This document shows positions 22,088-27,658 of a stretch of DNA of 64,000 nucleotides, piece after piece. The notes under the pieces are model-generated. The model was not told the origin of the DNA and did no database searches. It saw only the letters and a list, made by a program, of their open reading frames with translations. The position numbers and the translations under genes are program-made. Numbering within the stretch: the first letter of the stretch is position 1; each line of letters begins with the position of its first letter. This DNA is from an uncultured Tolumonas sp. (GTDB lineage: Bacteria; Pseudomonadota; Gammaproteobacteria; Enterobacterales; Aeromonadaceae). The stretch is taken from positions 2,205,501 to 2,269,500 of the forward strand of contig NZ_OY829944.1 in assembly GCF_963556105.2 (NCBI RefSeq), read 5' to 3'.

Positions 22088-22684
22088 TTATTTCAACCAA
22101 CCGCGTTGAATAGCGGGAGAAAACACCCATTCATACAGCGATGAGACAATTTTAAACACAGGTTCAATGAGCATTTTTTGCTGATACTGAATTAACCATG
22201 CACATGACGCTGTCACTAACATTGCGCCTATCATGTCGAGCGGGAAATGCACGCCTAGGTATATTCTTGCCCAGGCAACTGGCAAAGAAAGACATAACAA
22301 CATGCAGCCCAGTTTGCGTAATGCCGGATGCCACAGCAATGAAAAAGCCACAGCACAAATCAACGTCATGTGGTCACTAGGAAATGATGAGTCAGCAACA
22401 TGCGAGATCAATGTATGTCCCAGCCCCATCATAAATGGACGTGGATGTTGCCAGAAAAAACCAATGATTTGGTTGACTGATAATGCAATAACAGCAGTTA
22501 AAGCCGCTGCTAAAAATCCTTGTCGAATAGCGTTATCACCTCTTAACCAGCCGATAATGAGCAACGATGGAACTAGCCAGATTGGCAAGTCGGCCATCAA
22601 TTTAGCCAACATTACAATCAGCGCATTAGGCTGAATATCAGCATTTATGAGTAAAAATAAAGTTTGGTTAAAAAGTTCCACCAT
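22088..22684 (-). CDS. PAP2-family phosphatase, probable undecaprenyl-diphosphatase
   Basis: A 198-residue membrane phosphatase with about five or six hydrophobic segments. The three acid-phosphatase motifs are visible: HPRPF (motif 1), SSFPSDHMT (motif 2) and ARIYLGVHFPLD (motif 3). Size and motifs fit the BcrC/YbjG group, which recycles undecaprenyl diphosphate on the periplasmic side for cell-wall synthesis. Lipid A or phosphatidylglycerol phosphate activity is a possible alternative. Confidence 0.8.
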   Translation of the reverse strand: MVELFNQTLFLLINADIQPNALIVMLAKLMADLPIWLVPSLLIIGWLRGDNAIRQGFLAAALTAVIALSVNQIIGFFWQHPRPFMMGLGHTLISHVADSSFPSDHMTLICAVAFSLLWHPALRKLGCMLLCLSLPVAWARIYLGVHFPLDMIGAMLVTASCAWLIQYQQKMLIEPVFKIVSSLYEWVFSPAIQRGWLK

Positions 22685-23665: not shown

Positions 23666-24000
23666 ATAAATTCCTTTTCATATCACTGCTATTCATGAAA
23701 AATAAACTATATAAATCATTATGTTATAGTATAAAATTATGATTTATATCCGGTAAATAACAACAAGATAGATGCCAACTCGTAGCGCTGGCTAATGAGC
23801 GACTATTCCATGTAATAGTAAATATTCCACATTCATCACAGAACCAAATTTCTTCATACACTTAGAGAAAAAACGAATATTTCGGGCAATTTTTTCATAC
23901 TCATCTGTCTCTATTAATTATACTTTAGTTAAATGTTACTTCTATATTTCCATGCAATTCATGTGGTTATTTAATAATAATTAACTTCCGGAGATTTCAG
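23666..24000. other. Divergent intergenic region, modD and RsbQ-like hydrolase
   Basis: About 335 AT-rich bases between divergent genes. CCGGAG lies eight bases before the ATG at 24001. No clear ModE box, terminator or open frame was found here. Confidence 0.4.
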
Positions 24001-24822
24001 ATGAGGAACTTGATTCATTCCTTTGATGTAACTCAGTGGGGGCACAGTGATAAAACCATCGTCTTAGGACACGGCTTTGGTACAGATCAAACCTGCTGGA
24101 AACCTCAAATAAAGATGTTGTTGGATGAGGGATACCAGGTTATTATGCTTGATTTTGCTGGTGCTACCGCTAAAACAACTGAAGTGTTTGATCCATTACG
24201 CCATCAATCGCTATATGGTTTTGCTGAAGACCTAATCATGCTGATAGAATCACTCAATGTACATTCAGCGGTTTACATTGGTCATTCTATGGGCGGCATG
24301 GCTGGCGTATTAGCTCAAAATGGCAGCAAAGATATTTTTGATGCCCTCATTTTATTGGGTTCATCTGCTTGTTATGTAGACCATATTTCTGCTGATTATA
24401 TTGGTGGATTCAGCGACACAGACATTAATGGTCTGCTACACGCTATGCAGGAAAACTATGCGGTGTGGGCTAATGGCTTTGCTCCTTTAGTCGTCGGCCA
24501 ATCTAACCCTTATCTCAGTTATTCAGATTTTACTCAAAACCTACTGAAACTCCGGCCTGATGTCGCTCATTCAGTACTGAAAGCTGCATTTTTATCTGAC
24601 CATCGAGCCGATATAGATCAATTAGATACTACGTTATATGTTTTACAAACTAGCATTGATCATGCAGTCCCAATGGCGGCAGCTCAGTGGTTGGCAAATC
24701 ATGGGAAAGCACAAGAGTTGCTTGAAATTTCGACCCACGGCCATTTACCACACATCACGGCACCTCAGTTGGTCAACGATGCAATCCTTAAATGCTTGAG
24801 AACTTATGAAGAAACCTGTTGA
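24001..24822 (+). CDS. RsbQ/KAI2-like alpha/beta hydrolase
   Basis: A 273-residue hydrolase closely resembling Bacillus RsbQ along its length. The catalytic triad is Ser96 (GHSMGG), Asp220 (SIDHAVP) and His248 (HGHLPH), nearly the RsbQ numbering. GHGFGTDQTCW and SSACYVDHISADYIGGF match the RsbQ oxyanion and lid regions. RsbQ acts with the PAS domain of the phosphatase RsbP in energy-stress signalling, presumably by making or delivering a small hydrophobic ligand. Here the next gene, overlapping by 17 bases, encodes a GAF/PAS protein leading to GGDEF and EAL domains, so the hydrolase probably feeds a c-di-GMP sensor. Confidence 0.88.
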   Translation: MRNLIHSFDVTQWGHSDKTIVLGHGFGTDQTCWKPQIKMLLDEGYQVIMLDFAGATAKTTEVFDPLRHQSLYGFAEDLIMLIESLNVHSAVYIGHSMGGMAGVLAQNGSKDIFDALILLGSSACYVDHISADYIGGFSDTDINGLLHAMQENYAVWANGFAPLVVGQSNPYLSYSDFTQNLLKLRPDVAHSVLKAAFLSDHRADIDQLDTTLYVLQTSIDHAVPMAAAQWLANHGKAQELLEISTHGHLPHITAPQLVNDAILKCLRTYEETC

Positions 24823-25594
24823 TTTAGCGGCATGCATAGAAGCACTGGGTGCGCTCATTCATGCAGATGCGGTTTGTTTGTGGAAAACAGTAAACGAACA
24901 AATTGTTGCGCCGTTGGCTTGCTATCCGCAGGGATGGTTAGACATCCCTTTTGTTATGTCACCTATGCGCGATAACGTGGCATTTTATGTTGAAACTGCA
25001 GATATTCTGTCTCAGTTGCCTTTATCTATGCGGGCAAAATTAACGAATAATCCGCCTAAAGCATTAATGAAAATCCAAAACGCGTTAGGAAATGACACAT
25101 GTGTAGGTGTTATCGCTATTTGGAATGACCCACAACAAATAACCCAGCAGATAGATATCGTCAGCCAATTGATTGAACTCACGTTGGAGCGGTCATTTAA
25201 ATCTGATCACCAGATATCTCACAGCCATGAAGCCAATCAACAAATGCGGGCTTTAGCTGATGTGCTACCACACGGCGTTATTATTGTGCCGATGGATAGC
25301 AGGATGGGATATGTAAATCATGTAGCTGCACTTCTGCTCGGGTTTAATAAAAATGAAGTGTCATCGCAAGAATTGTCGGCCGCAATGCAATCTTTTCTCG
25401 CTAACACCACGAATGCAGAACAGTTAAAAAACTATATAGAAGCTATAATATCTGACCGCTGGAGAGCTGCAGAAAATCATAGCCAGATATGGCGCTTTAA
25501 AACGCAACCCAAAGCACTAAGAGTCACAATATCACCTATTAAAACAACACGTATCCATGGTTGGGTATGGCTGATGGAAGATGTCAGCAAATAA
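24806..25594 (+). CDS. GAF/PAS sensor segment, N-terminal part of an interrupted GGDEF-EAL protein
   Basis: A 262-residue product. Residues about 1-140 look like a GAF-type domain (CIEALGALIHADAVCLWKT, then GVIAIWNDPQQ), and about 150-262 like a PAS domain ending GWVWLMEDVSK, a typical PAS C-terminus. It ends at a TAA (25592-25594), and the same frame continues without break for 687 codons (IEYQDQLITQEQKFRSFYQNM), the usual PAS-to-PAS linker. So this is the front of one 950-residue sensor cut by a single stop codon. It overlaps the RsbQ-like gene by 17 bases. Confidence 0.8.
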   Translation: MKKPVDLAACIEALGALIHADAVCLWKTVNEQIVAPLACYPQGWLDIPFVMSPMRDNVAFYVETADILSQLPLSMRAKLTNNPPKALMKIQNALGNDTCVGVIAIWNDPQQITQQIDIVSQLIELTLERSFKSDHQISHSHEANQQMRALADVLPHGVIIVPMDSRMGYVNHVAALLLGFNKNEVSSQELSAAMQSFLANTTNAEQLKNYIEAIISDRWRAAENHSQIWRFKTQPKALRVTISPIKTTRIHGWVWLMEDVSK

Positions 25595-27658
25595 ATAGAA
25601 TATCAGGATCAACTGATCACCCAGGAACAAAAATTCCGAAGTTTTTACCAGAACATGCAAGAAGCCGTTGTTGGCTATGACATGCAGGGTAAGGTTGTCG
25701 AATCCAATTTTCTTCTCAAACAACTATTGCATATCTCCGACGATGAGCATGCCGATAATGGATTAACTATTCATAATCAAATGTTTGGCTGGAATGAAGC
25801 GTTATGGAAAACGGTATTTGCTGATTGCTTAACAACCAGTGTAGCCGGCCCTTATGAAAAACAAATGTATTCAAATGCGGGTCTATTGATTGAAGTCGAA
25901 GCTCTCGCCTTTTTACGAAAAGATGAAGCAGGTAATGTCCTAGGCATTTGGGAAGTTATTCGTGATATTACACAAAGAAAACAAGCGAATGCTCAACTCA
26001 TTCTTTCAGCAGAGGCGTTTGCAAGATACAGTGATAGCGTCATATTAACCGATGAAAATGAGATTATTCTTACCGCTAACGATGCTTTTACTGCATCAAT
26101 AGGGTTTACACGTGATGAACTACGTGGCAGTCGACCCAATTTGTTTAAATCTGGTCGCCATGATGAGATATTTTTTCAAAACATGCGTGATGAAATTAAA
26201 TCTCATGGTTGGTGGCAAGGTGGAATTTGGAACCGCACAAAAAATGGTGATCTTATTTTTAAATGGTTAACTATTAATGCAATAAAAGATACAAACAACT
26301 CGTTAACTCATTATATTGGTGTCTATCGCGATCCATCAGCCGTTAAAGATGCCCAAGAGCGAGTTTCTTATCTGGCCACCCATGATGAATTAACAAAATT
26401 ACCCAATAAGATGTTGTTTCAAGATAGATTGGATTTTTCTATTAAAAAAACACGGAAAGACAACACGCTTATTGCCGTCATTATGCTTGGCTTGGATGGT
26501 TTTCAAAATATAAATAATGTTATGGGCTATCAAACTGGGGATGTTATTTTACAAGAAGTTGCCTCACGCCTATTAAATGAAGTAAAAGATGAAGACACTG
26601 TATCTCGCTTTGGTGGTGACCTTTTTGCAGTCTTGATCGACGTATCTCAATTTGATGAGGTAATCTTGTATTGTGATCAACTATTGTCAACTATAAATAA
26701 ACCGCACTATATAGATGGTATACCTACCGTTGTTTCAGCGTCATTTGGTGTTAGTGTATTCCCAACTGATGGTGATAATGCTGAAACGTTGTTGCTGAAA
26801 GCTGACACTGCTTTACATGAAGCAAAAAAACTAGATAAAAATTCATATCGTTTTTTCACTTCTGATTTGATGGATAAATATAATCGGCAATTTAAAATCG
26901 AGAATGGTCTTCGTTTGGCGTTGAAGAACAATGAGTTTTTCTTACAGTATCAACCGCAGATATTGTCAAATGAAAAACACCTTCATGGATGTGAAGCATT
27001 AATCAGATGGAACCAATCAGGAAATATTATATCCCCTGCTGCATTTATTCCTATAGCTGAGGAATCAGGTTTAATTATTCCGATCACTGAATGGGTATTA
27101 CGGGAAGTATGTAGGCAATTGACCATATGGGATGCACTCGGCTTAAATATTCCAATTGTCAGTGTGAATATTTCTGCTCGGCATTTTCAGCGTGAAAATA
27201 TGATTAATAATATTAAAACCATACTAGCAGAGGAATCTACTAGCCCAAATCGTATCTGCCTTGAAATTACAGAAGGCACATTAATAGATGCCTCTCAATG
27301 TGAAGAAAAACTTAAAGAACTGAAAGGTATGGGTTTTAGTATTAGTGTTGATGATTTTGGTACTGGTTTTTCATCACTTTCTTATCTTAAACGGTTTCAT
27401 CTTGATGAACTTAAAATTGATAAAAGTTTTGTCGATGGAATAGAAAAAGATGAAAGCGATCGCGCGATTGTATCCGCTACGTTGTCGATGGCGCATAGTT
27501 TAGATATGCATGTAGTAGCCGAAGGTGTTGAAACATTAATGCAACTTAGTTATCTCAAAGATAAGGGATGCGAAACAATACAAGGTTATTATTTCAGCAA
27601 GCCTCTCTCAGCTGCCGATTTTGAGAACTTCGTAAATAATTGGAATAAATCCACTTAA
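25595..27658 (+). CDS. PAS-PAS-GGDEF-EAL c-di-GMP signalling protein, C-terminal part of the interrupted gene
   Basis: The frame is open from 25595, directly after the in-frame TAA; the first ATG is at 25655 and has no ribosome binding site, so independent translation is doubtful. From that ATG: PAS about 1-105, PAS about 110-235, GGDEF about 240-400, EAL about 410-660. The GGDEF signature is GGDLF, lacking the catalytic Glu, and no RxxD inhibitory site is visible, so cyclase activity is unlikely. The EAL domain keeps EALIRW, NISARHF, EITEG, DDFGTG and VAEGVE, so c-di-GMP hydrolysis is likely. It is the output of a module begun by the RsbQ-like hydrolase. Confidence 0.85.
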   Translation: MEYQDQLITQEQKFRSFYQNMQEAVVGYDMQGKVVESNFLLKQLLHISDDEHADNGLTIHNQMFGWNEALWKTVFADCLTTSVAGPYEKQMYSNAGLLIEVEALAFLRKDEAGNVLGIWEVIRDITQRKQANAQLILSAEAFARYSDSVILTDENEIILTANDAFTASIGFTRDELRGSRPNLFKSGRHDEIFFQNMRDEIKSHGWWQGGIWNRTKNGDLIFKWLTINAIKDTNNSLTHYIGVYRDPSAVKDAQERVSYLATHDELTKLPNKMLFQDRLDFSIKKTRKDNTLIAVIMLGLDGFQNINNVMGYQTGDVILQEVASRLLNEVKDEDTVSRFGGDLFAVLIDVSQFDEVILYCDQLLSTINKPHYIDGIPTVVSASFGVSVFPTDGDNAETLLLKADTALHEAKKLDKNSYRFFTSDLMDKYNRQFKIENGLRLALKNNEFFLQYQPQILSNEKHLHGCEALIRWNQSGNIISPAAFIPIAEESGLIIPITEWVLREVCRQLTIWDALGLNIPIVSVNISARHFQRENMINNIKTILAEESTSPNRICLEITEGTLIDASQCEEKLKELKGMGFSISVDDFGTGFSSLSYLKRFHLDELKIDKSFVDGIEKDESDRAIVSATLSMAHSLDMHVVAEGVETLMQLSYLKDKGCETIQGYYFSKPLSAADFENFVNNWNKST

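Follow-up and report, generated by a model that had tools for sequence, protein, structure and literature searches.

A KAI2-like hydrolase beside a PAS sensor in Tolumonas: a probable second, rare variety of the bacterial hydrolase-PAS module

What kind of partnership is encoded where the gene of an RsbQ/KAI2-family hydrolase runs directly into the gene of a PAS sensor with cyclic di-GMP (c-di-GMP) domains? The question is raised by a locus of an uncultured Tolumonas sp., situated in a stretch of 64,000 nucleotides of contig NZ_OY829944.1 which is called the window here and to which all coordinates without a locus prefix refer. An initial annotation had read the locus as the same hydrolase-PAS pairing that RsbQ and RsbP form in Bacillus, newly wired to c-di-GMP turnover. 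The wiring was right in kind. It was not new: according to the available text of Nadezhdin, Brody and Price 2011 (PMC3183031), 45 RsbQ homologues adjoin proteins with the PAS domain of RsbP (RsbP-PAS), whose outputs are a PPM phosphatase, a histidine kinase or a diguanylate cyclase. Three of these cyclases have a C-terminal phosphodiesterase domain, and A1SX34 of Psychromonas ingrahamii has tandem cyclase and phosphodiesterase domains. The same text reports that in Bacillus subtilis RsbQ directly contacts the PAS domain of RsbP and needs its catalytic triad; the signal of the module was unknown when it was described. The paper of 2011 thus already covers RsbQ/RsbP-PAS pairs whose output is a c-di-GMP enzyme, and the general idea behind the locus was known. 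What the locus adds is probably a second variety of this published principle. Judged by the comparisons below, the window pair is not the module of 2011; it probably belongs to a second and rare module of hydrolase and PAS whose outputs are interchangeable, analogous to RsbQ/RsbP-PAS but distinct from it.

Both genes of the pair are on the plus strand. The hydrolase open reading frame (ORF; 24001..24822, 273 aa) has an intact triad, as had been annotated: Ser96 (codon 24286..24288, motif GHSMGG), Asp220 (24658..24660) and His248 (24742..24744, motif GHLPH) align with the family, and the relation to both KAI2 and RsbQ was confirmed. The annotated overlap of 17 bases with the downstream ORF (24806..24822) was also found, that ORF starting at 24806. 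The sensor, in contrast, had been taken for a single gene. In the window genome it consists of two ORFs in the same frame, one of 262 aa plus stop (24806..25594) and one of 667 aa (25655..27658), parted by an in-frame TAA at 25592..25594; in a second genome of the genus (G003) nothing interrupts the sequence there, and a single ORF of 950 aa encodes the sensor. With its sensor split by the stop codon, the module of the window genome is unlikely to signal as designed.

The domain content announced for the sensor held for PAS, GGDEF and EAL and failed for GAF, for which no Pfam family exceeded the cut-off. The 262-aa ORF comprises an N-domain of about 140 aa (24806..25225) followed by the first PAS (25241..25588), which Pfam matched near the ORF end with a score under its cut-off and which closes with a DIT-type motif (EDVS). 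The 667-aa ORF has the order PAS-PAS-GGDEF-EAL. Pfam found its PAS_9 (26033..26332, the third PAS of the sensor), GGDEF (26375..26842) and EAL (26909..27604) domains; the additional PAS ahead of PAS_9 is suggested by the G003 protein, which has three Pfam PAS_9 stretches. In both genomes GGDLF (26612-26626 in the window) stands in place of GG(D/E)EF, so the motif of diguanylate cyclases is missing. No c-di-GMP synthesis is expected from such a degenerate motif. The EAL motif (26993-27001) and, in a by-eye alignment with MorA, all active-site residues of the EAL domain are present, which points to a c-di-GMP phosphodiesterase. The C-terminal half is that of an ordinary PAS-GGDEF-EAL protein such as the phosphodiesterases of MorA/DosP type, from which the sensor differs by its GGDLF and by an N-terminal input part of its own.

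If the locus were the module of 2011, its sensor should contain an RsbP-PAS. Such a domain lies at most 700 bases downstream (profile, >60 bits) at 110 of 124 related hydrolase loci among the matches listed, the window and duplicate loci being left out; RsbQ types are favoured in this sample, since one of the searches used five query rows of which three were RsbQ-type, and two of the 14 exceptions, L066 and L143, hold less than 700 bases downstream. The profile was built from 113 partner ORFs, which gave 99 motif-cut domains and, after nine had been dropped by hand, 90 seeds. In a two-fold cross-validation with 45 held-out seeds each, the minima were 99.1 and 72.3 bits and the medians 149.7 and 143.5. 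Among partner ORFs outside the seeds, L118 reached 69.2 and L101 85.9 bits, and four fell below 0: at L039 and L097 another ORF had been scored and an RsbP-PAS is present, while at L006 and L009 none was found. Against these values the window sensor scored 14.0/11.5 bits in its N-part and 14.0/12.9 in its C-part, the G003 sensor 32.5/25.2 summed over its PAS domains. An RsbP-PAS identity of the window PAS was therefore rejected (11.5-14.1 bits against at least 72.3 for the 90 held-out seeds).

One group of RsbQ-side hydrolases, from Pontibacter and Hymenobacter (L034, L041, L061, L066, L076 and L087), stood out in this survey. No RsbP-PAS was found downstream of them, L066 offering only 662 bases there, and these RsbQ-type hydrolases may have changed partner.

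Two other exceptions led to relatives of the window pair. They are plasmid loci of Novosphingobium sp. P6W (L143) and Sphingosinicella sp. BN140058 (L144), whose hydrolases are the top plasmid matches to that of the window (37% identity). Searched against 289 genomes of another class, that of G892 and probably the Alphaproteobacteria, the L144 hydrolase matched 14 at E ≤ 1e-20, including G1310 and G1337. The G1310 hydrolase scores 240 bits with that of the window, above the 197 of the best PDB chain, and the ORF directly behind it matches the N-part of the window sensor (E 5e-9). Further matches to this N-part were G1337 (2.5e-4), L143 (0.009) and L144 (0.03); the next was an RsbP-type partner (0.1). 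An alignment of six N-parts was then turned into a sensor profile and searched on genomes irrespective of any hydrolase. In the order of G892 it gave two matches at E ≤ 1e-10, G1398 (8.6e-60) and G1403 (2.4e-51), and in both a hydrolase of the module kind lies directly upstream of the sensor (197 and 185 bits). The pair survived the check on conservation outside the window genome that the initial annotation had proposed: it recurs in G003 and in six further, distinct lineages, of which the two named ones are alphaproteobacterial. The hydrolases of the six are 41-62% identical among themselves and 36-42% identical to that of the window.

The sensors of these lineages share their first PAS. It forms one subfamily, since each lineage left out in turn still scores 44 to 125 bits; a profile trained without the window's genus still gives that genus 65.1 bits (E 4e-18), so that the window sensor has a PAS of this new subfamily. 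When every member is used for training, full-length members reach 131 bits or more, and the L143 sensor, scored as two halves, gets 84 and 45; no true non-member among the ORFs of the loci exceeds 17.8 bits. The subfamily stands apart from the RsbP-PAS class on several counts. Its eight first PAS domains score at best 12.3 bits with the RsbP-PAS profile. An F-alpha pattern written for RsbP-PAS occurs in 84 of 90 seeds and in none of the eight module sensors (L143 being cut short), whereas the DIT-type motif, described as absent from the class, ends the PAS in seven of the eight and in three of the 90 seeds. The eighth, L143, is cut before the motif, which is present in its continuation L165. 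Moreover, the first PAS of the window sensor is not the most N-terminal domain, unlike in the RsbP-PAS class.

Downstream of this PAS the lineages have swapped their outputs. G1310 has a histidine kinase, G1337, L144, G1398 and G1403 have GGDEF domains, and the window's genus has GGDLF-EAL. L143 was assigned a GGDEF output from its GGEEF motif, its end lying across the record origin; the GGEEF motif occurs in all five GGDEF outputs outside the genus. The module is thus built of a KAI2-like hydrolase gene followed by a sensor composed of a poorly conserved N-domain, a PAS of its own subfamily and a lineage-specific output. It shares with RsbQ/RsbP-PAS an upstream RsbQ/KAI2-family hydrolase, a tightly linked downstream PAS sensor and the exchange of outputs between kinases and c-di-GMP enzymes. 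It differs in the hydrolase clade, in the PAS subfamily with its DIT-type motif, in the extra N-domain ahead of the PAS and in the PPM phosphatase, which is the output of none of the eight sensors.

Two points concern the records of the plasmid members. The sensor of Novosphingobium plasmid pP6W2 spans the record origin (L143:4717-5394 and L165:2-682) and is missing from the gene table. In Sphingosinicella (L144:4767-6050) the diguanylate cyclase is annotated from 5073, which probably lies too far downstream; its frame extends without a stop to an earlier start that overlaps the hydrolase by 17 bases, as in the window.

The N-domain is the least uniform part of the sensor. It is clearly common to G1337, L143, G1398 and G1403 (leave-one-out E ≤ 2.1e-22), and G1310 joins them by hhalign (4.5e-6; leave-one-out E 0.077), so that homology is supported among these five and not for the window's genus or L144. 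For residues 1-140 of the window sensor no Pfam family exceeded its cut-off, the best being Diacid_rec with 14.6 bits against 23.6, and a profile search of the PDB gave chance matches only, starting at E 0.15. AlphaFold2 on the window N-part alone returned no usable fold, with a predicted local distance difference test (pLDDT) value of 34, and no fold is claimed for it.

The hydrolase likewise points away from RsbQ. Among PDB chains its best match is PpKAI2-like E (197 bits, 38% identity), compared with 146 bits for RsbQ (1wom). A tree of 76 rows, whose bootstrap was not fully settled, separates 58 RsbQ-side rows from 18 others with support of 100/100; the smaller side holds the eight module hydrolases, five plant chains of the KAI2 family and five hydrolases without such a sensor. 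The hydrolases of the window, G003 and G1310 group together (99/97) and lie on the plant side of the 100/100 branch, nearest to the RsbQ side (15|61, 99/92). Independently of tree building, the residues agree with this division. In a comparison of 145 rows (L160 was left out of the groups), position 28 is Thr in all eight module and all five plant chains and Cys in 123 of 126 RsbQ-side rows. Position 121 is Ala, Ser or Gly in module and plant hydrolases and Pro in 125 of the 126, position 185 is Arg in seven of eight module and five of five plant chains as opposed to Asp in 103, and position 249 is Leu or Phe (one Phe coming from the frameshifted G003) as opposed to Cys in 115. The triad Ser and Asp are kept in all eight module hydrolases and the His in seven, the exception being G003. 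By tree and residues, then, the window hydrolase falls outside the RsbQ clade. Together with the missing RsbP-PAS this sets the pair apart from the RsbQ-RsbP pairing, and the annotation of the same hydrolase-PAS pairing had to be given up. What the two have in common is that the gene directly ahead of the sensor encodes a hydrolase whose Ser-Asp-His triad is intact.

It might be thought that a hydrolase with KAI2-type residues is a relative of the plant receptors in particular. Fold, triad and residues 28, 121, 185 and 249 are indeed those of the karrikin and strigolactone receptors KAI2/D14. The window hydrolase differs from these in being bacterial and encoded beside a PAS sensor, and the G1310 hydrolase is nearer to it (42%) than any plant chain compared. 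The residues may be ancestral, in which case they tell that the hydrolase is not of RsbQ type but do not mark it as a receptor of the plant kind. Nor do the trees decide. The plants stand beside four module hydrolases (94/81), and in approximately unbiased (AU) tests two alternatives escaped rejection, the plants joining the RsbQ side (p 0.21) and the eight module hydrolases forming one clade (p 0.26). When the tree was rooted with five distant hydrolases, the RsbQ-side clade (100/99) excluded the window trio, which became its sister (98/91), while the plants stayed with the four module hydrolases (91/84); owing to long branches, a root from such distant outgroups is doubtful. An earlier tree had joined the hydrolases of the window and G003 to plant KAI2 through a very long branch; with better sampling they go to G1310, in a position between the RsbQ side and the group that contains the plants. 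An AlphaFold2 model (pLDDT 94, from a 33-row alignment) gave KAI2 structures as the first Foldseek matches by E-value, with RsbQ at rank 34; the template modelling (TM) score is about equal for both (RsbQ 0.92, KAI2 0.91), so the ranking rests on sequence. On these comparisons a special kinship with plant KAI2 is a possibility.

How might the module work? The hydrolase would bind, and perhaps slowly cleave, a small hydrophobic molecule in its lidded pocket. Loaded or spent, it may dock on the N-domain or PAS of the sensor, a step proposed by analogy to the direct contact of RsbQ with PAS described in the available text of PMC3183031. The PAS with its DIT-type exit would then relay the change to the output, so that c-di-GMP breakdown would go up or down in the window's genus, and c-di-GMP synthesis or phosphorylation would change in the other lineages.

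Several observations weigh against the reading as a second module. The pair is rare: the sensor profile was convincing in two of the 397 genomes of the order of G892 and, in two small orders of seven and four genomes, in the seed genomes alone, although the large searches, those of the 397 and the 289 genomes among them, scored only about 6 to 8 candidates per genome and may have missed some. At the weaker profile matches in the small orders, in G1359, G1218, G1357 and G1358 and at a second place in G1310, no hydrolase was found in the stretch examined. Homology of the window N-domain to those of other lineages was not significant (hhalign P 0.12, reversed control 0.71; leave-one-out 9.0 bits, E 0.73, with a chance ORF higher at 11.8 bits), and the same is true of L144 (P 0.44). 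Five hydrolases of the same region of the tree (L161, L162, L146, L148 and L152) have no such sensor, so the pairing is not obligatory. One broken partner in each of two genus genomes also fits a system that is being lost. Finally, ligand, hydrolase-PAS contact and c-di-GMP effect are predictions.

The candidate places just mentioned (G1359 at 1.7e-7) were rejected as members because their PAS is generic, with at most 17.8 bits in the PAS profile. The five hydrolases without the sensor come from two Azospirillum plasmids and three genomes and fall outside the RsbQ side; they are less uniform at the test positions (Thr28 in three of five), and the neighbour of the L152 hydrolase is an anthranilate-synthase-like gene. 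Plasmid searches with the sensor N-part of the window or of G1310 found nothing, and one with the L144 sensor found only L144 itself. The phages searched held no relative of the hydrolase. No report joining KAI2-like hydrolases to such PAS sensors was met among the open-access papers listed, a weak negative with subscription journals mostly uncovered.

Among the alternatives the most durable concerns the mechanism. As the initial annotation had proposed, the hydrolase might make or deliver a product that is bound by the PAS (model 1 in the available text of PMC3183031) instead of being the receptor itself (model 2). The near-complete conservation of the triad, lost only at the frameshifted His of G003, would suit an enzyme. 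PAS folds often hold ligands, which fits as well. Plant KAI2/D14, on the other hand, are receptors with slow turnover. The sequence evidence does not separate the two models, and we regard the product model as a serious possibility, though somewhat short of an even chance.

A less favoured view is that the locus is dying, both genes being remnants in decay that no longer serve a function in the genus. The sensor is broken by the stop in the window genome and the hydrolase of G003 by a frameshift at GH(L)PH, the motif with the catalytic His, so that each genome with the pair has one broken partner, and the pair was not found in nine of the 11 genus genomes, four of these nine being under 90% complete. 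The distribution also shows the cohesion of the pair: hydrolase and sensor N-part are both present in the same two genomes, and neither was found in the other nine. Because of this, and because the pair recurs in six further lineages, the pairing is more than chance. Selection speaks against decay. Between the window and G003 the ratio of nonsynonymous to synonymous substitution rates (dN/dS) comes to 0.063 in the hydrolase, compared as far as codon 247, and to 0.117 in codons 1-262 of the sensor. The 20 codons that separate the stop from the next ATG give 0.054, from 3 synonymous changes and 1 other, and the remaining C-terminal part gives 0.059. Among the domains, the first and third PAS have the lowest value (0.044) and the N-domain has the highest (0.179). 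Values of 0.04-0.18 over all parts, including the codons behind the stop, indicate strong purifying selection on both genes, and hence that each lesion is recent or a sequence error, which is possible for either. By the same measure the module was strongly selected until recently. The modD-hydrolase-sensor-CusF neighbourhood, moreover, is kept in both genomes. On balance a dying locus is doubtful.

Could the split sensor of the window genome still work, as two polypeptides from two starts? The 667-aa ORF is open and strongly selected and has an ATG at 25655. No good ribosome-binding site was seen by eye ahead of this ATG, and the other members whose sensor is seen whole have a single chain, so we consider this improbable. 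Least credible of all is that the locus is simply a diverged RsbQ/RsbP-PAS module of the ordinary kind, its output being GGDEF-EAL like that of A1SX34. In favour, gene order and kind of output match those in the available text of PMC3183031, most other such hydrolase loci do have an RsbP-PAS just downstream, and the RsbQ side is the sister of the window trio in the rooted tree. Against it, profile, F-alpha pattern, end motif and position all show that the sensor lacks an RsbP-PAS, and the hydrolase lies outside the RsbQ clade.

The surroundings of the pair are largely shared by the window genome and G003. Common to both is the order hypothetical gene, HAD-type gene (by eye), modD-like gene, hydrolase, sensor, CusF-like gene and genes beyond. 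The window gene 22088-22684 was not found in the G003 neighbourhood, where (L004:1905-3503) a LysR-type gene and a small SRPBCC-like gene (both by eye), absent from the window, lie between sensor and CusF-like gene. A third genome, G007, has a second modD-like copy with an internal TAA (L142:8574-9404), which has AsnC-type, LysE-type (by eye) and hypothetical neighbours in common with the window; the 15 kb examined there showed no hydrolase and no sensor. In the window the divergent modD-like gene is separated from the hydrolase by 23666..24000. A GGAG resembling a ribosome-binding site was read by eye at 23990-23993, ahead of the hydrolase, and the promoter scan, uninformative with 7 sites against 17.9 expected, listed no promoter-like site on the plus strand of this interval.

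What does a second hydrolase-PAS module mean for the family? KAI2 itself possibly came from bacterial RsbQ by horizontal transfer, according to the available text of PMC10504578, which cites Wang et al. 2022. We advance only tentatively, as less likely than not, the idea that the bacterial hydrolases ancestral to the plant karrikin and strigolactone receptors were already ligand receptors docking on PAS sensors with interchangeable kinase, cyclase or phosphodiesterase outputs, and that the plant lineage kept the receptor and changed its partner. The proposed second module, independently recognisable and with KAI2-type residues, offers an outside comparison for hydrolase-PAS communication, and its bacterial partners give access to the question of what KAI2-like hydrolases responded to before plants. 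With one kinase, five cyclase-type and one phosphodiesterase-type lineage, the question is testable by output swaps.

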